The position numbers and the translations under genes were made by a program. Positions 34,444 to 62,015 of a stretch of DNA of 64,000 bases are shown in pieces. This stretch comes from Diphasiastrum complanatum (Eukaryota > Streptophyta > Lycopodiopsida > Lycopodiales > Lycopodiaceae), in NCBI GenBank assembly GCA_029204225.1, contig CM055107.1, positions 7,964,472-8,028,471 on the forward strand. Direction: 5' to 3'. How positions within the stretch are numbered: position 1 is the stretch's first letter; each line of letters starts with the position of its first letter. The notes below the pieces were generated by a model that did no database searches, was not told the origin of the DNA, and saw nothing but the letters and a program-made list of their open reading frames with translations.

Positions 34444-34726
34444 CTCACCGGCTATTGGGATAGAGGCCTCCTCTCAATCGCCCTTGATATCAACAAGCCC
34501 TTGCAGACTGAAACGAATCACATCAATGTGACACGCCTTTATTACCGTGCAGCACTCACTTTAGCGATATGGTGGAACTCTGGAAGATCCATGGATTCTT
34601 GCAAGGCATGCTGCATTGTTACAAGCAACTGCCCTTCCTCAATAAACTCCGCTGGCAAATGATGAAAGGCATCAGCAATAAAATCTATCAAATCCGTCAA
34701 CAACAATCTCGCCTCCAGGAAGCTCA

Positions 34727-35020
34727 AAAGCTTCGATTGGTGTGGGACCACCAATCCAATAAGGAGGGGGATAATGTTAGCAACTGTGCTGATACAGAGA
34801 AAAATAAAAAAGAAATAAATAGAACTCTGTGGCATGTGTTTTGTAAGCCCAAGTATCTGAAAAGATCTAGGACGAAAAAGCTTCGATTGATGTGGGACCA
34901 CCAATCCAATAAGGAGGGGGATAATGTTAGCAACTGTGCTAATACAGAGAAAAATAAAAAAGAAATAAATAGAACTTCGTGGCATGTGTTTTGTAAGCCC
35001 ATGTATGAGTATCTGTCAAT
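34727..35020. repeat. 150-bp tandem duplication at a PPT/LTR junction
   Basis: The unit begins aaaagcttcgattg at 34727 and again 150 bp later. Each copy contains the polypurine tract AAGGAGGGGGA and the presumed LTR start TGTTAGCAACTGTG (34775 and 34925). A partial third repeat of 'ggcatgtgttttgtaag' follows near 35033. Confidence 0.9.
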
Positions 35021-46440: not shown

Positions 46441-46921
46441 AAGCTACTGTCTTTTAGATAGTGTTAGAAGACTTGAAGTTTTGGTGTTGATTAAGCAATT
46501 TCATTGGATAACTATTTTTGTAATAGTTTGAAAAATGGTGTAAGAAAGTCAATACTATATAATGTAATGTACTTGAAATTCTTTGAGTCCACATGCTTTA
46601 TGCATGATCATTTCAATGTAAGGACCAAAGATTATCCTACTTCAATGAAAGAAATAATGGTAGTTTTTTGCTCTTTAAGTAGACATTGTAGAGTCTACAT
46701 TTTGTTCCACCAAAGAAGTTGTCAATGGTAAAATATGATCTTTCATGAGTGGAAGACTTGCAAACTTGAAGGAGCATCTTTGGATCAACACCTTATTCAA
46801 CTCATTGATGGAGAGGAGCTGAGCCAAGTACAAGGAAAAGGTGAAAGGCCGAGAATTCCAAGAAGACCTTCAAATTCTAAAGTGGGGTTAAGTTTATTGG
46901 CAAAGGAAGGAAAAGTGAGGA
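46441..46921. other. No clear gene
   Basis: Continuation of degraded retroelement sequence in plus sense. No convincing motif. Confidence 0.4.
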
Positions 46922-47023
46922 GATGGAAATCCAAACATTGGTAGGATAGAACGGAATGCTCCGATACCAATTGATGGAAATCCGAACATTGATAGGATAG
47001 AACATACTGCTCTAATACCGATG
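46922..47023. repeat. 51-bp tandem duplication at a primer-site remnant
   Basis: Unit starting 'gatggaaatccraacattg' occurs at 46922 and 46973. Each ends in a variant of GCTCTGATACC (gctccgatacc, gctctaatacc), the complement of the iMet primer site, so an old LTR/primer-site junction appears duplicated. Confidence 0.7.
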
Positions 47024-47153
47024 TTGGGAAGATCGGAAATGAGAGGAAGAAGGAACAGTGTGGAACAACTCCCGAATCGATGTGTAGGACCGGTTAAAAA
47101 CAAATGCGTGTTCAGATGCTAGTTTGATCACATCCACCGAAGAGTGTTGGAGA

Positions 47154-47495
47154 TGTGAAAAGTTTTTACAACTTGGTGTATGTGGTCGGGCTAGGGATTG
47201 TGGGCTAGGGATCGAACCTAGGACCTCCCCCATTCCGGTGGGGTGCTCTACCACTGAGCTATCCATCCTTTTGTGTTCCTAGAGTGTTGTGCAAGGGCTA
47301 TATCCTTGACACTTTCTAACACTCCCCCTCAAGGCATAGCCTTTTTTAGCCACCGATCGCCTAGACCACACCCACAACCATGGCTCTGATACCACTGGTG
47401 AAAAGTTTTTACACTTGATGTGTGTGGTTGGATTGAGCCTAGGACCTGAACCTAGGATCTCCCCCATTCTGGTGGGGTGCTCTACCACTGAGCTA
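47154..47495 (-). mobile_element. TRIM retroelement with tRNA-like LTR, copy 1 (truncated)
   Basis: LTR 47154-47321 (168 bp; TGTGAAAAG...CTTTCTAACA on the plus strand). Internal region 47322-47394 is only 73 bp: complement of a polypurine tract (ctccccctcaaggc) at one end and complement of the iMet primer site (gctctgatacca, 47383-47394) at the other. The second LTR begins at 47396 after one spacer base and is cut off near 47495, where a ~374-bp segment including 5' flank (gatcacatccaycgaagagtgttggaga) starts again. The element reads in minus sense. No protein is encoded. Confidence 0.85.
47204..47268 (-). promoter_or_regulatory. tRNA-like Pol III promoter inside the TRIM LTR
   Basis: The minus strand forms a clean D-arm (GCTC-AGTGGTA-GAGC), an anticodon-like stem (CCCC/GGGG) and a perfect 5-bp T-arm (CTAGG-TTCGATC-CCTAG). 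A box TAGCTCAGTGG and B box GGTTCGATCCC fit the Pol III consensus. The acceptor ends do not pair, so it is a tRNA-derived promoter rather than a tRNA gene. Confidence 0.75.
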
Positions 47496-47527
47496 GATTG
47501 ATCACATCCATCGAAGAGTGTTGGAGA

Positions 47528-47929
47528 TGTGAAAAGTTTTTACAACTTGGTGTATGTGGTCGGGCTAGGGATTGTGGGCTAGGGATCGAACCTAGGACCT
47601 CCCCCATTCCGGTGGGGTGCTCTACTACTGAGCTATCCATCCTTTTGTGTTCCTAGAGTGTTGTGCAAGGGCTATATCCTTGACACTTTCTAACACTCCC
47701 CCTCAAGGCCTAGCCTTTTTTAGCCACCGATCGCCTAGACCACACCCACAACCATGGCTCTGATACCACTGGTGAAAAGTTTTTACACTTGGTGTGTGTG
47801 GCTGGATTGAGCCTAGGACCTGAACCTAGGATCTCCCCCATTCTGGTGGGGTGCTCTACCACTGAGCTACCTGTCCCTTTGTAATCCTAGAGTGTTGTGC
47901 AAGGGCTATAGCCTTGACACTTTCTAATA
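47528..47929 (-). mobile_element. TRIM retroelement with tRNA-like LTR, copy 2 (complete)
   Basis: LTR 47528-47695 (168 bp), internal region 47696-47768 (73 bp, polypurine tract and iMet primer site only), LTR 47770-47929 (160 bp, final CA reading TA). The 5-bp target duplication GGAGA lies at 47523-47527 and 47930-47934, so this is a bona fide insertion. Both LTRs carry the tRNA-like segment (47579-47640 and 47810-47876); in the second the B box reads GGTTCAGGTCC. Total about 402 bp, no coding capacity, so replication would depend on another element's proteins. Confidence 0.9.
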
Positions 47930-47945
47930 GGAGATAATATCGGTA

Positions 47946-49172
47946 TGTTAGAATCGGAAGGTTTAACATGGAATAATGATGTAGAACGATTGGGCTTGTT
48001 CCTCAGGTGTCAGAGACAATCATCGTCTGAACAGATGCTGAGGAGTCAGAGACGTCCGTGATCTGTCAGATTGAGTGAACGAGCTAAACAAGCAAATAGA
48101 TTGATGTAATGAAATCACAACACACAGACATCCACATAAAACAAAGATGATAAATAAGTTTTGTTTGTATATTACATTCAATGCTTGTAGTGAAGCAAGA
48201 GCAAGAAATTGATTACAGATCTTTCGCTCTTCTCGCTTATTTCTAAATGAGAGCTGGAGATGTATTTATACACATCGTTCTTGCTTGTTACAAGAAACGT
48301 TTTAACTAATCTATAATTACAAGACTAGTTGAACGTTGGATGAAAAACACAAAACTAGTCCAATTCCCATGCCCTAACCGTGTTATCTTCGAAACGAAGG
48401 GTGCTTCTGAACGGACAATGTCGAAACTAAGCAACAGTCCGACCAGTTCCAAGTCTTGACCTGCCAATTGCCTCTAAAGCCCTTTTTTGAGCTGGACTTC
48501 GAACAGAGGTCCTGAGTTCCCTGTCTAACATGTCGAGGATTGAACTGTGTACTTGGTCATGAAATAATGTACAACGACATCTATACAGATCGTATATCAG
48601 TCAGGTTTAAGCTTCGCTTCGAGAGCGTGAAGTTGTGCCGTCATAGAAGCCGTGGGTGAACCACAATGTTGGCTTGGCAGTTTTTAACAGTCGCAATGTT
48701 TGTCGCAAGACGTAGCTTGCGGTTCCCTTCGGTTTTGGTCTTCGTAAAGTGACTGCAAGTTTACTCCTGCGGTGCCTTGCGATAAATCGTAGCCATTGCC
48801 TTGGCGGTTCCTTGCGGTGGCTTGCAGTTGCCTTCGGTGCCTTTGTTGAAACCGTTTACAGGACTTGCGGTTGTTTATGGTTTTCTGTGGGCAATTTTTG
48901 TGTATTTCTGCAGGCTGTGCAGAAACAGTTCATTTCTGCAAACTGTGTAGAAAAGACTGATTTTGTTGAAGACGTTGAAGATGGCCAGGTCGGTCTTCAA
49001 ATAACTTAAACTTGACATTTGAACGAGAAAAGAATAGGATTGGTTACCTTTTATGCTTTGATCCATGGATGAAGATCAGTTTGAAGCCCAAGCCGGAAGT
49101 CCGATGCAATCGTTCTTCAAATAGTTCGGCCGTTTGAGTTCAAGAAAGAAACTACGAGCTTAATTTCCAACA
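47946..49172. repeat. Possible solo LTR
   Basis: Begins TGTTAGAATCGG and ends TTTCCAACA, a terminal inverted repeat like those of other LTRs here, with a TATTTATA motif near 48258. No flanking duplication is seen, and no primer site or polypurine tract adjoins it. The ORF 48749-49009 inside is not convincing. Confidence 0.4.
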
Positions 49173-49188
49173 ACATCCACGAAAGGGG

Positions 49189-49842
49189 TGTGAAAAATAC
49201 AGATCCTAAGTGGATCTAAACTCCAAGATCATTGGCTTGAATGCTTGCACTCCAAACTACATAAGCTAGGAATTGGCAACACATTCTATGCTACCTAGAA
49301 TGCAAAGAACTTGATCAAAAAGCATTTATCACAAATGGAAACTTCCATAAACATCAAGTGCGGCCCAAAATAGCATTATACAGTCCATAATACATCAGCC
49401 TATCACTTTTGGAAAGCACCTAAGATCATACACAATAGCTTGAAGACAATACACACAACAATGCTCTCAATGGAGGAAGAAACAATGACAATGATCTATT
49501 GATCTCAATGAAGCATACAAAAGGTTTCTCCAACCTGTTCTCCACGACTTCCTACTATTTATGGATGAGGAAGATGACTCTCTCTCCTCTCTCTAGAAGG
49601 TACTTGACCCTAGATATTCCCTATATAGGAAAAATAGCTAAAAATGGCTTATATGACCAAAATACATCAAAATGGTCTCATTTTGAAGGGTATGAAGTTT
49701 GACACTTCATCATACTGAAAAAATACAGTAAATAAAAACATTGTGGCCTGGTTCACACGTGCAAAACTCCAGAACCAAAACTATTTACAATTTTAGCCAA
49801 TTTAGGCCTCAAACTAGCTAGGAAATGTTGACAATTTTCACA
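49189..49842 (-). repeat. 3' LTR of the intact Copia element
   Basis: 654 bp. The stop codon of the polyprotein occupies bases 3-5 of this LTR in element sense. It contains GTTCACACGTGCAAAAC, a G-box-like sequence, at 49751-49767. Confidence 0.95.
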
Positions 49843-52800
49843 CTCCCTCTTCAACATTGGATGCTAGTTTCAACATAGTCTTTGAGCACATTCCAAGATT
49901 AGATCTATGCATTAAATATAGGTCCTTTCTTAATGGTTTGGTGAAGATATCAGCCACACACTCCTTTGAAGAGACATGTTGAAGCTCCACCTCTTTGGCA
50001 ATGACTTGATCTCTCACAAAATGGTGAGCAATCTCAATGTGCTTGCTCCTTGCATGAAAAACAGGATTGCTTGCCAAGCTTTGGGCTGAAAGGTTATCAC
50101 AAAGTATGATTGGAGTCTTCTCTGGTTCCAGCAAGTGAAGATCCAATAACATCCTCTTGATCCAAAGAATCTCCTTGGTGCATGTTGTTAATGCCTTGTA
50201 CTCGGCTTCGGTGGAAGATAGAGAGATAGTTGGTTGCTTCTTTGATAGCCATGAGACCACTCCATCTCCAAGATAGATTGCAAAGGCACTTGTTGACTTC
50301 CTATCCATTTGATCACCTGCAAAATCTGAATCTGAAAATCCACAAAGGTTAGGTGTAGTACCTCCATACAAGATGCCAAAATCTCTAGATCCCGAGATGT
50401 ATCTAAGTACTCTCTTTCCTAGCTTCCAATGAGCCTCACTAGGATCTTGCATAAATTGACTTAGTTTACCAACCACAAAGCTTAGATCAGGTCTTGTGAT
50501 GGTTAACCATATAAGAGATCCTATTAGCTTTCTATAGAGAGTAATGTCCTTGAAGGATCTTTCATTACTTCTTGTAGTTAGCTTTACATTTGATTCCATA
50601 GGAGTAGAAACAACTTTACAATCTTCCATATGAAACCTTTTTAGAATAGAGTTAACATACTTTTCTTGACATATGAATGTAGATTTAGAAGTTCTAATAA
50701 TCTCTATTCCTAAGATATAATGAAGTTTACCAAGATCTTGAATTTCAAACTCTCTTTTGAGTGCCATCTTGATTTCATCTATATCTAGATTGTTACCACC
50801 ACTTAAGATAATGTCATCAACATAGATCAAAAGTAAAGTGATATCATTTTCATTCAATCTAAAGTAGAGAGAATGATCATACTCACTCATAACAAAGTTT
50901 TGAGAAAGTAAGAAGGAATTGAGCTTAGCATACCAACTCCTTGGTGCTTGCTTTAGCCCATACAAACTCTTTTGGAGATAGCACACATGATTAGGCTCAT
51001 CATGTGAAACATAGCCCTCGGGTTGCTCCATGTAAATATCTTCTTCAAGATCACCATTCAAGAAGGCATTAGTAACATCCATTTGCCACATATCCCAATC
51101 ATAAAGAGTTGCAAGAGAGATTAGGATTCGAATAGTTACCATCTTTGCCACGGGTGCAAAGGTCTCATCATAGTCAATACCATATTCTTGAGCATACCCC
51201 TTTGCCACCAACCTTGCCTTGTACTTGTTGATTGATCCATCTTGATTTGTCTTGATCTTGAAGATCCACTTACAACCAATTGCCTTCTTGTCCTTTGGAA
51301 GCTTTACCAACCTCCATGTGTTGCTTTTGATGAGTGCTTGATGCTCATGATCCATGGCTTGGATCCATTCCTTCTTTTGAATTGCTTCACCTACACAAGT
51401 TGGTTCATCAAAAGAGGTAAGAAAAGCAAAGTTAGAGTTGTCCACCACTTGCTTTCCTTTTTCATCATAGGTTAGCCTTGATGGCTTAGCCCTTTGCCTT
51501 TGAGTCTTCCTTGAAGTTTGCTTTGGAGTGGCATCTCCATCTTCATCCAAGACATCTTGCACATCATGATGATTAGTAGGCACATCAACATCAACATCAA
51601 CAACATTGGAAACATTCTCTTCATGAAAGATGACATCCCTACTTATGACAACTTTCTTTGTAGAAGGAATGTACACTTTGTAAGCCTTGCTTACTTCACT
51701 ATAGCCAACAAACACACCCTTCTTTGATGAAGGATCTTCTTTAGTTCTATCATCAAGTGTGATATTGACAAAACATGTACATCCAAAGATCCTACAATGC
51801 TTGACACTCGGCCTTCTACCATAAAGAACCTCATGAGGAGTTTTACCATCCAAGGAAGCACTTGTCCATCTATTACATAGATAGTTAGCACATGCTAAAG
51901 CTTCCCCCCAAAAAGACTTAGCAAGATTAGCATGTAGTCTCATTGCCTTGGCACATTCACAAAGGGTTCTATTCTTCCTCTCGGCCACTCCATTCTGTTG
52001 TGGAGTCCTAGGACTAGACATCTCCCTCTTAATCCCATGTGCTATACAAAAGTCTTTGAACCTATTTGAGGTGTATTCCCCTCCATTATCAGATCTTAAG
52101 CATTTGATCTTTGTATTGAATTGGTTTTCCATTTCATTCTTGAACTTGACAAATGCAGCAAACACTTCATCCTTACTTTTAAGAAGATAGATCCAAGTAT
52201 ACCTACTAAAGTCATCAATGAAAGTTGCATACATCTTTGCCCCACCATTGCTAGTTGTACTAGAAGAATGAATATCAGAATGCACAAGTTGAAAAGCTTC
52301 TTTAGATCTAGAAGTAGATCTAGAATAAGCAAGTCTATGAGATTTGGACAAGGCACAATGTTCACAAACACTATTGTTTGCAACAAGACTTTTAGGGAGA
52401 CCAAGAACAAGCTCTTTCTTTGCCATTACCTCCAAAGATTTGAAGTTGGGATGGCCCAACCTCTTGTGCCAAACTTCTTGGTTTGTCAATTGCTCCCTAG
52501 CCATACATCCTTCATGATTAGAGATCACACATGCATCAAGCTTGAAAAGTTTACCATGCGTCCTACCTTGAGCAATCAAGGATCCACATTTACTTATCAA
52601 ACATGCATCTCCAATGAACTCCACATCAAGTCCTTTGTCAATCATTTGACTTACACTAAGCAAATTCTTAGTGATTGAAGGAATGTACAAAACATTTTCA
52701 AGATTTGCTTTCCTATTTGTTGAAAGGGAAATAGGAATAGTGCCTATGCCTTTGATGTCACATTGACCATCATTTGCAGTGTAGATGATGTTACCTTCTC

Positions 52801-53791
52801 CCTCATAAGACAATAAGGATGTAAAGTATTCCTTATGTCTTGTCATGTGAGATGAGGCTCCACTATCAATCCACCAAGGATCATTATCATCTATGTTGGC
52901 TAACAAACTTGAAGTCATAACAAGTGATTCACATGTGTTATGTTCTTCCTCATCTATTGTAAGATTTCCTTGCCTCTCTCCTTGCTCTCTTTTCTTCTTA
53001 TAACATTCATTTGCAAAATGACCTTTTATCCCACAATAAAAGCACTTGAACTTTGACTTATTGTTCTTAGTAGAAGAGGAAGAGGAAGAGTGATCATCAT
53101 GATCAAAGTTACCACCTTTGGACCATTTCCCTTTGCCTTTACCTTTGCCCTTGAATTTGCCTTTTGTGAAGAAAGCCTCTTCACCTCCACCTTGCAAGGA
53201 TGCACCATCAAGCTTTGATTGCAACCTATGCTCTTCAGCCAATAAGATTTCTTGCAAGTCAACCACACTTGGCAAGACTCTTTGAATGGCAAAACTTTGC
53301 ACAAGGTTAGCATGTTCATTTAGCAAACCATTCAACATAACTTGGACTATTTCACCATCTTTTATGTTCTCATCAATGCATGCTAAATCATCACTTAGGG
53401 ACTTAACTCTCAAGATAAATGCATGAGCACTTTCACCCTCTCTTTGCCTACTAGAAAATATTTGTCTCCTTAGGGTCAATACCCTAGATGTGGACTTTGA
53501 TTCAAAGAGCTTCTTTAAGGCATTCCATGCCTCACTTGCACTTTGACACTTTCCAACTTCCTTGAGAAGTTCATTTGTAACATTCATTTTAATGATATGA
53601 AGAGCCCTTTTGGCCTTCTTATCAAACCTTTGTTGCTCTTGAAGTGTGAGAGGTCTCTCTTCAATTTCTGCAACTATGTCCATGAGTTCATTCAACTCAA
53701 GTAAGGACTCCATCCTCACTTTCCAAGTAGAGTAGTTTGATGAACTCAACCTTTCACTAGACTCTAGCATGATCCCACCATTGGAAGCCAT
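49838..53791 (-). CDS. Copia gag-pol polyprotein, intact
   Basis: One 1317-aa frame. Gag residues 1-235 (UBN2-type, NYSTWKVRMESLL, RVLTLRRQIF); zinc knuckle C250-x2-C253-x4-H258-x4-C263; protease with D309-S-G; pre-integrase H442/H446 and C476/C479; integrase D506, D568, E604 (D,D35E spacing); RT with first Asp at 905 (QMDVTNAFL) and YVDD at 990-993; RNase H with D1156, E1197 and D1232 and C-terminal DIFTKPL. No stops or frameshifts and every catalytic residue present, so the element is potentially active. Gag and Pol are in one frame, as in other plant Copia elements, so the ratio must be set by processing or splicing. The start ATG is the first, near the end of a 1.15-kb leader. The last codon and stop extend into the LTR. 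Confidence 0.96.
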   Translation of the reverse strand: MASNGGIMLESSERLSSSNYSTWKVRMESLLELNELMDIVAEIEERPLTLQEQQRFDKKAKRALHIIKMNVTNELLKEVGKCQSASEAWNALKKLFESKSTSRVLTLRRQIFSSRQREGESAHAFILRVKSLSDDLACIDENIKDGEIVQVMLNGLLNEHANLVQSFAIQRVLPSVVDLQEILLAEEHRLQSKLDGASLQGGGEEAFFTKGKFKGKGKGKGKWSKGGNFDHDDHSSSSSSTKNNKSKFKCFYCGIKGHFANECYKKKREQGERQGNLTIDEEEHNTCESLVMTSSLLANIDDNDPWWIDSGASSHMTRHKEYFTSLLSYEGEGNIIYTANDGQCDIKGIGTIPISLSTNRKANLENVLYIPSITKNLLSVSQMIDKGLDVEFIGDACLISKCGSLIAQGRTHGKLFKLDACVISNHEGCMAREQLTNQEVWHKRLGHPNFKSLEVMAKKELVLGLPKSLVANNSVCEHCALSKSHRLAYSRSTSRSKEAFQLVHSDIHSSSTTSNGGAKMYATFIDDFSRYTWIYLLKSKDEVFAAFVKFKNEMENQFNTKIKCLRSDNGGEYTSNRFKDFCIAHGIKREMSSPRTPQQNGVAERKNRTLCECAKAMRLHANLAKSFWGEALACANYLCNRWTSASLDGKTPHEVLYGRRPSVKHCRIFGCTCFVNITLDDRTKEDPSSKKGVFVGYSEVSKAYKVYIPSTKKVVISRDVIFHEENVSNVVDVDVDVPTNHHDVQDVLDEDGDATPKQTSRKTQRQRAKPSRLTYDEKGKQVVDNSNFAFLTSFDEPTCVGEAIQKKEWIQAMDHEHQALIKSNTWRLVKLPKDKKAIGCKWIFKIKTNQDGSINKYKARLVAKGYAQEYGIDYDETFAPVAKMVTIRILISLATLYDWDMWQMDVTNAFLNGDLEEDIYMEQPEGYVSHDEPNHVCYLQKSLYGLKQAPRSWYAKLNSFLLSQNFVMSEYDHSLYFRLNENDITLLLIYVDDIILSGGNNLDIDEIKMALKREFEIQDLGKLHYILGIEIIRTSKSTFICQEKYVNSILKRFHMEDCKVVSTPMESNVKLTTRSNERSFKDITLYRKLIGSLIWLTITRPDLSFVVGKLSQFMQDPSEAHWKLGKRVLRYISGSRDFGILYGGTTPNLCGFSDSDFAGDQMDRKSTSAFAIYLGDGVVSWLSKKQPTISLSSTEAEYKALTTCTKEILWIKRMLLDLHLLEPEKTPIILCDNLSAQSLASNPVFHARSKHIEIAHHFVRDQVIAKEVELQHVSSKECVADIFTKPLRKDLYLMHRSNLGMCSKTMLKLASNVEEGV
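49843..49852 (-). other. Polypurine tract of the intact Copia element
   Basis: Minus strand GAAGAGGGAG directly before the 3' LTR TGTG. It is coding: it specifies the final Glu-Glu-Gly and the first base of the last Val codon. Confidence 0.85.
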
Positions 53792-54941
53792 GATTCTAAT
53801 GTTTCTTCAACTTTTAGGTTCTGTCCTAAAGCACTTAGCACTCACTTTTCTCTCAACAAATGATAGATAAAGAGATCTATGAAGATTTAGGACCCTAAAA
53901 CACTTCTATCTTGAACCTAGATGGTTTCCAAGCATAGAAAGGAAGATTGAAACACATGCAACACTTTGCACACACTAAGAATGGATTACAAAATCAAACC
54001 AACCTGAACACACTCTTGCTTAAGCTCCAGCAAGTGACCAAATCAAGTTATGGTGTGAAGAGTTACTTGCATTCTTAGAAAATACCCAAAACTAGGATGC
54101 CAAGATTACCTAGTAATGAACAAACTTGATCAACATATGATCAACACACTAAGATATTGATTCAACCTGTAAAACCACATGTAAACCACACTTCTAAAAG
54201 TTTATAAACTCCAGCAAGTGATAAATACAAGATTTAGAGGTGAATGAATGAGCACACTTAGTGAATCACAAGACTAGCTTCACTATCTTGTCAAATCTTG
54301 GTGTTTAGATGTAGATCTAAGATCACTTCACATGAGAATGTTCCTCAACCTGTTAAGAACCTGAAAACACACTTGCATAATGGTTAACACCTTCCAGCAA
54401 ATGCTCCAATCAAATTACATAAGGAGAGTTACTTACATGCTCAACAAAGTACACCAAAATTTATGCCAAAATTGATGACAATCTTTACAATATGCTCTTC
54501 ACAATGGAGCTTACAATATGTTCACCCAAAAAAGGGGATCTTTCATCCAAATGGGGGCTTTGCTCAGCCTTTAGGAGAATTACAACTCACTCAAAAGAGC
54601 ATTTGTCATCCACTTAAGGAGAAGTTTCATCCACTTAAGGAGAGTGTTCATCCAAGAATGGAGATTGTCAACAATAGGATTGAAAAGAACATTGTTAGTA
54701 TTGAATATGCACAAGCCTCACAATCACAAATGATTAGGTGTTATGATCTGATCCAAAATAGTTTCTTTTCAGCCTCTGATCTTCAATAGACCTGAAATAT
54801 GCTTTTGATCCACAAGTTCAACTCACAAAACAAAGGTTAGTAAGATTTGATCAACAAAGCAATGCAAAATCATGCTAGAACTTGATCAAACATCCAAATA
54901 TCACCAAAAATGGAATACTTACTGTAAATAGAAGCCAACCA
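53792..54941 (-). other. Long untranslated leader with degenerate tandem repeats
   Basis: 1150 bp between the primer site and gag ATG. On the plus strand, units starting aacctg(t/a) at 54002, 54164 and 54347 repeat the pattern 'aacctg...cacactt...tccagcaa(a/g)tg' every 163-183 bp. Near 54600-54655 a ~17-bp unit (ttcatccacttaaggag) is repeated. A 108-codon plus-strand ORF (54463-54789) here is antisense to the leader and not called. Confidence 0.65.
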
Positions 54942-54953
54942 GCTCTGATACCA
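54942..54953 (-). other. Primer-binding site, tRNA-iMet
   Basis: The minus strand reads TGGTATCAGAGC immediately after the 5' LTR, a full 12-nt match to the complement of the 3' end of plant initiator tRNA-Met. Confidence 0.95.
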
Positions 54954-55608
54954 TGTGAAAAATACAGATCCTAAGTGGATCTAAACTCCAAGATCATTGG
55001 CTTGAATGCTTGCACTCCAAACTACATAAGCTAGGAATTGGCAACACATTCTATGCTACCTAGAATGCAAAGAACTTGATCAAAAAGCATTTATCACAAA
55101 TGGAAACTTCCATAAACATCAAGTGCGGCCCAAAATAGCATTATACAGTCCATAATACATCAGCCTATCACTTTTGGAAAGCACCTAAGATCATACACAA
55201 TAGCTTGAAGACAATACACACAACAATGCTCTCAATGGAGGAAGAAACAATGACAATGATCTATTGATCTCAATGAAGCATACAAAAGGTTTCTCCAACC
55301 TGTTCTCCACGACTTCCCTACTATTTATGGATGAGGAAGATGACTCTCTCTCCTCTCTCTAGAAGGTACTTGACCCTAGATATTCCCTATATAGGAAAAA
55401 TAGCTAAAAATGGCTTATATGACCAAAATACATCAAAATGGTCTCATTTTGAAGGGTATGAAGTTTGACACTTCATCATACTGAAAAAATACAGTAAATA
55501 AAAACATTGTGGCCTGGTTCACACGTGCAAAACTCCAGAACCAAAACTATTTACAATTTTAGCCAATTTAGGCCTCAAACTAGCTAGGAAATGTTGACAA
55601 TTTTCACA
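54954..55608 (-). repeat. 5' LTR of the intact Copia element
   Basis: 655 bp, same as the 3' LTR but for one inserted C at the run cttccctac (cttcctac in the other copy). Confidence 0.95.
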
Positions 55609-59188: not shown

Positions 59189-62015
59189 ATGGCATCAGCA
59201 TCTGCTGCTGTCACTGTTATGCAGCATGTCGGGAACACCGGCATGTCAAGGAACGCATACTTGCCGCCTTTAATATCTAATCACAAGGTACCGTGACATT
59301 TTGTTGATTTTAGTAGATTTACGTTGTTTTCGTGCAAATATTGTTATCGAAAACAAATTGAGCTCATTGTCTTGTATATTAAGATGTTTCGTCTTTCAAA
59401 TAATCTCCTGTGTGATCAAACATACCATTCTTTCTATCTTTCTTTTGCGAGAGAGAGAGGAACCGAAGGGTGGGGGGTTGTGTGAGGGGTTGTGTGTTAA
59501 AATTAAGTCATATAGAGATTGTGTTAAGCCATTTTGTACTGTGATGATCTGACACTTCCTTGGTCTATTTTCCGCTTTTCAGTTTCACATGAAAGTTTCT
59601 TGGAAAAGGAACACAGGTTTCAATTTTAGCGGTTACAATATCTGGTCGAAGGCAGGAGGTCGGCTGCAGAAATCGTGTACACATGCAGTTCTTGAAAAGC
59701 CTAGCAATAGTGGCAGGGATTCAACTGACCCTGCATGGGCCTCATTGGAAAAGCTATATCTTCAGAATCCTGGAAGCGCCATCACGTTTGGCGCATCTGG
59801 AAATGGATCCCTAGATTTGGCTCTTTCGCCTTTGGATCGCAACGTTGCAATACAGGATTTAAGGAAGAAAGAGGAGCAGCTAAAGGTAGCAGAAAAGGCA
59901 GCAGAAGAAGATGGCAAGGAGGTCCAGATTGCGCAATCCGCTTTGGTGAATGGTGAGAAAGATCTTGAAGTGGCTGCCATTCACCACAAAGCAAGGCGTG
60001 AAGAAATAGTTTTATTGAGAGAGCAATTGACGATGCAGTCAAAAGAGCTTAAGGAGACAAAGCGCGTGGTGAAATTGCAGCAGCGCGAGGTTCGTGTATC
60101 GAAAGATCAGTTCACAAAGAAACAGGCAGAGCTAAGAAGTGTTAAAGTGAAACTACTTGAAAAGGATCAAGCTCTTTCTGAACTCAGACTAGAAATAAAA
60201 TCAAGAGAATCTCAACTACTCGCTGCAAACTCTGTCATTTCGCAGCAATCCTCAGACATTGATCGGCTTAGAAGTTCCGTGAAAGAGAAAGAGAACGAGT
60301 TGAGGAGATCCGAAGAGGAGAGGTTTTTGAAGCAGGAAAAGCTTCTGAGGACAGAATCAGATTTGGAGAAGCGTGTGGTTGCCTATCTAAGTGCACGGGA
60401 GGAGTTAAGGGTTTTAAGCAGTGATGCAGAACTTTATGAGAAAAGAGGCCTGGCGTTTGAACAAGAACTTGAGCAAGCCAGGTCTCTTCTTTTTGATGTT
60501 AGAAAAGAACTGGAAATCTCTCAAAAGGTTATTGCCAACTACAGGCAGGAAGTGGAAGAAAAGGAGATGCAAATCAGGCAACAACATGAAGAACTTGCCT
60601 CCCAACTTTTCTTGTTGAACTCATATACTGCAAGCCTGCAAGATGCTAAAACGGAACTTGAAGAGGAAAGAGAGCATGTGCGGCTTTTGAAAGGATCATC
60701 AGAACAGCTTGAGCACATATTGCTGGAAAACAAATGCTTGGTGAAGGACTTGCAGTTGCAATTAGACAAGGAGAAGACAGCATTGCAAAGTTCTGTTTTA
60801 GAGGTTAATTCATTGCGAAAGGAATTACAACAACAGGAATCTGCCGTTTCTGATAACCAGCTTCTTGTGCAACTGAAGGAAGCTGAGCTGATATCAATGA
60901 AACTGGATATTCAAGAGATAAGATCTGACCTGACTTCCATGCGCATCTTGCTTGATGAGAGAGGCCAAGAGTTGGAATCTGCCAGGAAAATGGTTAAGGA
61001 GCTTCAAATGGAGGTGAGTCATCTGAGAGCTCGTCTGAAATTAGAGGAGGAAAGGTACATTTCAGCAACAATACTTCTAAAGGAAAGAGATGAGGAGCTC
61101 GATGTTATGAAGCTTGACCTAGATGAGAACAAGGCAAAGCTTTCCGAGGTTACTACAGTTGTGGAGCAGATTGCAAAATTATCAAGATTTTTGGCAGAAT
61201 CCAGCATTGAAGGCAAATCCAGTCTTTCTCAAGAAGGTTCTGTCTTAATGGAAACCAATTATGAGCTGTTTAGTGCAAATCGGGCACTTCTGGAAAAGGA
61301 GTTTGAACTACAACAGCTTCATGAGAAGTCTTTACAAGACAGGTTGAATCGACAGGGATTGGAAACAGAGCTGAAGGAACTAAGAGGTCGCCTGCGGCAG
61401 AAAGATAACGAACTTCAAGCTGTTCATAGAGCACTTGTAAACAAAGACAGTGAGTTTAAGCAGCTCCAGGCCAAATGGCAGACTCGGGAAGCTGAGCTAA
61501 ACAAGATGCGAGAGGATGTGATTGAGGAAGCTAAGGGTTTAACCAGTCTTCATGTGCTAGCTCAAACGCCAGGGAAGAATGGACAGAAAAGCCCTGGGGT
61601 TGTGGCAGTGGAAAAGTTGGAGTTGGAGGTCTCAAAACTAGAGGTAGAGGCTGCCAAATGTGCTCTACAAAAACTAGCAGAACTGAGTTTTGAGCTTCTT
61701 GAAGATGGACAGGACTATCAATTTACCCCTGTTGATGCAGATGATAAATCTGTGTCATCCCTGGGTAGAAATTCCCAATTGCTACGGGGCAATATAGGTG
61801 GGTATAGTGGGAATGACATGAACGATTCATCAGGCTTCACCTTATCTGAGGTTGTTGCTGACCTTGACAATCTGAAAGTGAAACTGGAACAGAGAGATGA
61901 AGTTCTTGAACATACTAAGAGAGCTATGGTGAATTTGTCGAAAATGACGAGAGAGTTTCTGGTGGAAGCTGGTGTAAATGTTGAGAGGCCTTTTAGTCAT
62001 GCCTATTCTTTTTGA
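59189..62015 (+). CDS. PII1: Plastid coiled-coil protein, PII1/MRC-like
   Basis: Exon 1 59189-59287 and exon 2 59583-62015, GT-AG intron of 295 bp, 843 aa. The first ~80 residues (Ser/Ala-rich, few acids) look like a plastid transit peptide. A conserved-looking stretch LEKLYLQNPGSAITF is near residues 88-102. From about 125 to 725 the protein is almost all heptad-type coiled coil (e.g. QLTMQSKELKETKRVVKLQQ). The C-terminal ~100 residues include SGFTLSEVVADLDNL and a helix ending FLVEAGVNVERPFS. The family match is to Arabidopsis PII1/MRC (At4g32190, about 780 aa), which interacts with starch synthase 4 in granule initiation; this is from memory of overall features, not alignment. Alternative: another plastid coiled-coil protein such as MFP1. 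The 59189 start opens the transit peptide in frame with exon 2. Confidence 0.7.

Follow-up and report, generated by a model that had tools for sequence, protein, structure and literature searches.

TRIMs with tRNA-like sequence in their LTRs were named Helenus by Kojima 2024, where they join Cassandra and Ajax in the group TRIMp3 (PMC10886601). In the part of that paper available to us, Helenus is reported in plants from Selaginella only, where Helenus-1_SMo of Selaginella moellendorffii has an LTR of 120 bp and an interior of 85 bp, and Pol III transcription of Helenus is stated to be unproven. Gao 2016 lists eight TRIM subfamilies in Selaginella, and its main text never uses the term tRNA (PMC4717578). 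Judged by titles and abstract openings, we found no other literature on tRNA-bearing TRIMs beyond PMC10886601. The kind of element considered here had been thought possibly unnamed when it was picked out from sequence alone; the class in fact already had a name.

The element described here comes from Diphasiastrum complanatum, and its likeness to Helenus-1_SMo is one of description. As in the available account of Helenus, it is a TRIM with tRNA-like sequence and A and B boxes in both LTRs, a PBS and a PPT; it has 5-bp target duplications, as do plant and fungal Helenus, and the 120 and 85 bp of LTR and interior in Helenus-1_SMo are close to the 153 and 72-73 bp found here. Cassandra resembles it in being a TRIM whose LTR carries Pol III promoter sequence, in the PBS used in a search pattern for Cassandra (TGGTATCAGAGC) and in forming tandem arrays (PMC7215508, as far as that text was available), but the Cassandra LTR has 5S rRNA sequence, whereas we find tRNA matches and no 5S (there was no Rfam match to 5S rRNA in the window, in the 30 distinct insertions or in the second sample described below). 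Ajax of nemerteans, as presented in the accessible part of PMC10886601, shares the proposed TRIMp3 grouping, a small-RNA promoter and 5-bp duplications, but is 5S-derived and animal.

Direct reading of the window, by which we mean the whole 64-kb stretch of DNA analysed, showed that 47528-47929, read on the minus strand, is an LTR element of 402 bp without genes. We think it probable that this is a degraded member of a Helenus-type TRIM family of high copy number, typically about 378 bp long, with tRNA-derived promoter sequence in its LTRs. Its features, and those of an adjacent partial duplicate, are as follows (A and B boxes were placed by eye).

47930-47934, either strand: 5' copy of the target site duplication (minus TCTCC, plus GGAGA)
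47771-47929, minus strand: 5' LTR, 159 bp, starting TATTAG where the family norm is TGTTAG
47803-47876, minus strand: tRNA-like segment of the 5' LTR, Rfam RF00005, 32.2 bits
47859-47869, minus strand: A box of the 5' LTR, consensus
47816-47826, minus strand: B box of the 5' LTR, altered
47775-47778, minus strand: TTTT close to where the 5' LTR ends, a candidate weak terminator for Pol III
47696-47770, minus strand: interior, 75 bp, with no room for a gene
47756-47768, minus strand: PBS, TGGTATCAGAGCC, beginning 2 nt past the 5' LTR (PBS-proximal sequence, CCATGGTT)
47696-47706, minus strand: PPT, TTGAGGGGGAG, the final bases of the interior, ending at 47696
47528-47695, minus strand: 3' LTR, 168 bp, TGTTAG...TTTTCACA
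47573-47642, minus strand: tRNA-like segment of the 3' LTR, RF00005, 34.9 bits
47625-47635, minus strand: A box of the 3' LTR, one change
47582-47592, minus strand: B box of the 3' LTR, intact
47532-47535, minus strand: TTTT close to where the 3' LTR ends, a candidate terminator for Pol III
47523-47527, either strand: 3' copy of the target site duplication (minus TCTCC, plus GGAGA)
47118-47491, minus strand: partial duplicate, a 374-bp tandem copy of 47492-47865 with most of a second interior, a second 3' LTR (47154-47321) and flank
47431-47502, minus strand: RF00005 match across the duplication junction, 32.1 bits
47199-47268, minus strand: RF00005 match in the duplicate's 3' LTR, 37.2 bits

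The sequence-only reading had proposed a TRIM in which both LTRs carry a promoter sequence of Pol III type derived from a tRNA; this was borne out by the LTR pair, the PBS, the PPT and RF00005 matches in both LTRs; the GGAGA duplication that it reported is indeed exact on either side of 47528-47929. The overall length of about 400 bp was also right, while LTRs given as 160-168 bp measure 159 and 168 bp and an interior given as 73 bp measures 75 bp. By eye, the D and T stems of the tRNA-like segments are fully paired, in keeping with the perfect arms that had been claimed; the boxes, said to be consensus, depart from it in the 3' LTR (A) and in the 5' LTR (B). The PBS is presumably the complement of the 3' end of tRNA-iMet. 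The four tRNA matches (32.1-37.2 bits, against a gathering score of 29 bits for RF00005) are the sole above-gathering matches in the window, and folding of three tRNA-like segments of this copy was not clearly above that of shuffled sequences (z of 0.09, 0.62 and -0.85).

The interval originally assigned to the element, 47154-47934, does hold one TRIM insertion; the remainder belongs to the 374-bp duplicate. As 47118-47491 and 47492-47865 are 98.4% identical with flanking DNA included, we read the interval as one insertion plus a partial copy and not as a second insertion. Comparison of the LTRs within the window copy gives 24 differences over 159 sites, plus 9 gap positions, which marks this copy as an old, degraded member. 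It also has a near-identical, inverted second copy 0.5 Mb away on the same contig (L006, C16:7509300-7511300, against 46500-48500 of the window), and similar inverted pairs, each confined to one contig, are formed by L010 and L014, L012 and L013, L015 and L016, and L019 and L041. Such pairs are either inverted duplications or an assembly artefact. Elsewhere in the window lie other near-perfect two-copy tandem duplications (305-817, 969-1212 and 34726-35006, with units of 120-258 bp) and an 820-codon open frame (59553-62015) that appears coiled-coil-like by eye and gave no Pfam match at E 0.001.

A similarity search of the host genome assembly (1.74 Gb, 5176 contigs) turned up 772 candidates when the window element was the query and 701 when copy L023 was, with 40 scored per query. 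LEAFY-type exons are also present in the assembly; the one solved relative listed for them, Ginkgo LFY, is identical at 63 of 103 aligned positions, as would suit a land plant. A 40-nt LTR-start pattern, allowing up to 3 mismatches, occurs at 633 sites genome-wide (301 on one strand and 332 on the other), some of them in arrays or duplicated stretches; the reversed pattern, used as a control, occurs at none. From the 40 scored candidates for the window element we fetched 39 loci, a set therefore selected by similarity, and removed 9 as repeats of the same insertion on the basis of shared left flanks, leaving 30 distinct insertions in which L006 stands for the window insertion. Most fetched copies are 378-379 bp long, with LTRs of 153 bp and interiors of 72-73 bp, and so have the two LTRs, the length below 1 kb and the lack of coding capacity of a TRIM.

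Two expectations about the family, namely that other copies would have LTR pairs with target duplications and that the tRNA-like part would recur in their LTRs, agree with what we found. Of the 30 distinct insertions, 16 lie between exact 5-bp target duplications, where 0.04 would be expected by chance from an offset control and 0.10 from a cross-locus control; one of the 16, L010, sits in a TC repeat. The 14 insertions with no exact duplication comprise: (i) copies in arrays or with tandem neighbours (L017, L022, L035 and L044); (ii) copies adjoining other repeats (L011, L026 and L037); (iii) copies with an end cut off or altered (L039, L040 and L043); (iv) near misses (L021 and L029); and (v) plain absences (L012 and L015). 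At least two LTR matches to RF00005 were obtained in each of the 30 insertions, with scores of 28.9-61.4 bits overall (L020 being the highest, and one LTR of L006, at 28.9 bits, falling marginally below the gathering score). LTRs without a tRNA match do occur: L017 carries two matches across its three LTRs, and L035 carries seven across nine LTR hits.

For 19 chosen insertions, of which 15 have exact duplications, K80 between the paired LTRs ranges from 0.013 to 0.070 with a median of 0.027, and these low values indicate that other copies of the family moved recently. Among 16 interiors the PBS TGGTATCAGAGCC is exact in 11 and has one change in 5 (L007, L012, L015, L017 and L023); the PPT end GAGGGGGAG is exact in 14 and changed in 2 (L009 and L022).

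Several loci have unusual arrangements. L035 (C6:17887003-17890755) is a tandem array of nine LTR hits with mostly full or shortened interiors between them, and in this it is like Cassandra, which also forms arrays. In L011 and L037 the TRIM adjoins, in opposite orientations, the start of one and the same repeat (TGGTATCATG..., an LTR in L045), and in L026 19 nt of reversed TRIM interior stand directly before the 5' LTR. These junctions may have arisen by end-to-end joining of cDNA or by repeated targeting.

A second sample was chosen to avoid the bias towards whole-element similarity and consisted of 20 isolated sites among the exact LTR-start matches listed, picked as they follow one another on C1-C4 once pairs, dense clusters and previously fetched loci had been set aside. 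All 20 sites run on into the family LTR (over at least 79 of 153 positions), and the tRNA gathering score was reached at 14 of the loci. With boundaries set automatically, L066 is the one locus of the 20 where the 5-bp duplication is exact. Many of the loci are cut short or belong to arrays, the lone LTRs L057 and L067 both stand without a target duplication, and L048 and L050, like L058 and L063, appear by eye to be one insertion per pair. In L066 (C4:9528598-9529898) both LTRs show an identical loss of 16 nt, covering the D-arm hairpin and A box, between exact AGACT duplications; either the copy was already deleted when it moved, or reverse transcription dropped the hairpin. Losses in the T-arm region affect one or both LTRs of L048, L051, L059 and L064. 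The second sample shows a decaying family and weakens the claim that the promoter is kept in every copy.

The majority LTR has an A box (TAGCTCAGTGG) and a B box (GGTTCAATCC), which some copies have lost. In the majority of 30 LTRs, counting from the start of the tRNA-like segment, CAA occupies -5 to -3 and the TATA-like motif CTATAG occupies -35 to -30, and TTTT is found at LTR positions 146-149, followed by CACA. Signals of plant tRNA genes include CAA at -1 to -10, TATA motifs and poly(T), each in part of the genes only, according to the accessible part of PMC11700998. The average number of differing rows per site among the 30 LTRs is 0.91 in the A box and 0.30 in the B box, the LTR mean being 0.73. 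The B box is therefore the least variable segment measured and the A box lies slightly above the LTR average; since the A box is no more constant than the remainder of the LTR, a promoter role gains little from conservation. T-runs of at least four are confined to the vicinity of the LTR ends in all seven copies checked and in the window copy, and are present at both ends in five of the seven (L009 and L042 have each lost one). The TTTT is also part of the LTR end of a neighbouring Copia (TTTTTCACA), so its presence is no proof of termination and it may be there for integrase.

That Copia (49189-55608) is flanked by CCCCT on both sides and has LTRs that are 99.85% identical, which makes it a very recent insertion. 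Its open frame, 1322 codons long, matches Copia domains, among them gag, integrase and reverse transcriptase. With the TRIM it has in common a 20-nt LTR/PBS junction (TTTTCACATGGTATCAGAGC) and a similar purine tract. We rejected it as a demonstrated partner because its LTR and interior are otherwise dissimilar to those of the TRIM; the shared junction and similar PPT support a Copia-type helper in general and not necessarily this one. It is likely, in our estimation, that Copia elements help the TRIM to move. No autonomous partner was established among the LTR elements beside L011, L026 and L037. Viral contigs contained no relatives of the neighbouring Copia polyprotein; the exact 18-nt LTR-start pattern is present in five of them, as a match of 16-19 nt with no more of the LTR or tRNA sequence, and we attribute this to chance.

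Our working model, drawn from the arrangement of these signals, leans towards transcription of the TRIM family by Pol III. Pol III would start close to the CAA that immediately precedes the tRNA-like segment of the 5' LTR, would often pass the weak TTTT near the end of that LTR, and would then cross the interior and terminate at the TTTT close to where the 3' LTR ends. Tandem Cassandra transcripts, presumably arising from read-through of intervening LTRs, are described in the available part of PMC7215508. The predicted RNA would have at each of its ends an R of about 100 nt that contains the tRNA-like part, and a U5 of only about 4 nt (CACA) would be left. A Copia-type element would provide reverse transcriptase and integrase in trans, with tRNA-iMet priming at the PBS and the PPT priming the second strand. 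A rather more doubtful extension is that the Copia-like LTR end CTTTTCACA does double duty, the T-run ending the Pol III transcript and CACA being the integrase substrate; this would account for a U5 of only about 4 nt and would place nearly the whole promoter in R, to be regenerated at both LTRs in each cycle.

The alternative that deserves most attention is that this is an ordinary TRIM transcribed by Pol II, whose LTR ancestor captured a tRNA gene or the head of a SINE, so that the tRNA-like part is an unused passenger. Pol II is the polymerase of most LTR retrotransposons, which counts in favor of this idea, as do the lack of special conservation of the A box, the absence of an above-gathering tRNA match at 6 of the 20 loci of the second sample and the deletion of the A box from both LTRs of L066, a copy with an exact target duplication. 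We nevertheless consider it unlikely, if well short of negligible: the family majority forms a cloverleaf, with scores of up to 61.4 bits in L020, CAA upstream and TTTT downstream are both in place, and the loss in L066 covers a hairpin, so that a single skip during reverse transcription could explain it.

If, on the other hand, the tRNA-like segments were functional tRNA genes carried by the element, a cloverleaf would also be expected, and the majority sequence does fold as one (6 of 7 pairs in the acceptor stem, 4 of 4 in the D stem, 5 of 5 in the anticodon stem and 5 of 5 in the T stem). The anticodon loop has 6 nt, however, the acceptor stem has one mismatch, and ARAGORN returned an undetermined type with a two-letter anticodon; a 6-nt loop without an assigned type makes a working tRNA unlikely, and we find this explanation hardly tenable. 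Equally hard to credit is a chance SINE insertion in one LTR of a single element. SINEs are tRNA-headed units without LTRs, and nothing beyond the tRNA-like sequence itself speaks for one; what the TRIM has in common with tRNA-derived SINEs is a tRNA-derived, Pol III-type promoter sequence, but here it comes with LTR pairs, a PBS, a PPT and 5-bp target duplications, and at least two LTR matches in each of 30 distinct loci contradict a single event. Spread of a tandem or segmental repeat by DNA duplication alone, with no retrotransposition, would fit the existence of arrays (L035 with its nine LTR hits, L017 and L065), the tandem duplication of the window copy and the 9 of 39 fetched loci that repeat another fetched insertion, flank included. 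It is contradicted by the exact 5-bp duplications at the LTR ends of 16 of the 30 distinct loci, beside which the arrays look secondary, and we regard it as very improbable.

Given our preference for a Helenus-type TRIM carrying a tRNA-derived promoter sequence, the family, compared by description, falls under the definition of Helenus and looks like another, large plant family of that class. The class is already known; the family in the Diphasiastrum complanatum genome may be unreported. Where the available part of Kojima 2024 has one plant species with Helenus, the plant family described here has been active recently and counts 633 LTR-start sites. It would be a good test bed for asking whether tRNA-type promoters drive LTR retrotransposons and whether Copia enzymes can carry a Pol III transcript. 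In addition, counts of tRNA genes in such genomes may be inflated by TRIM LTRs.
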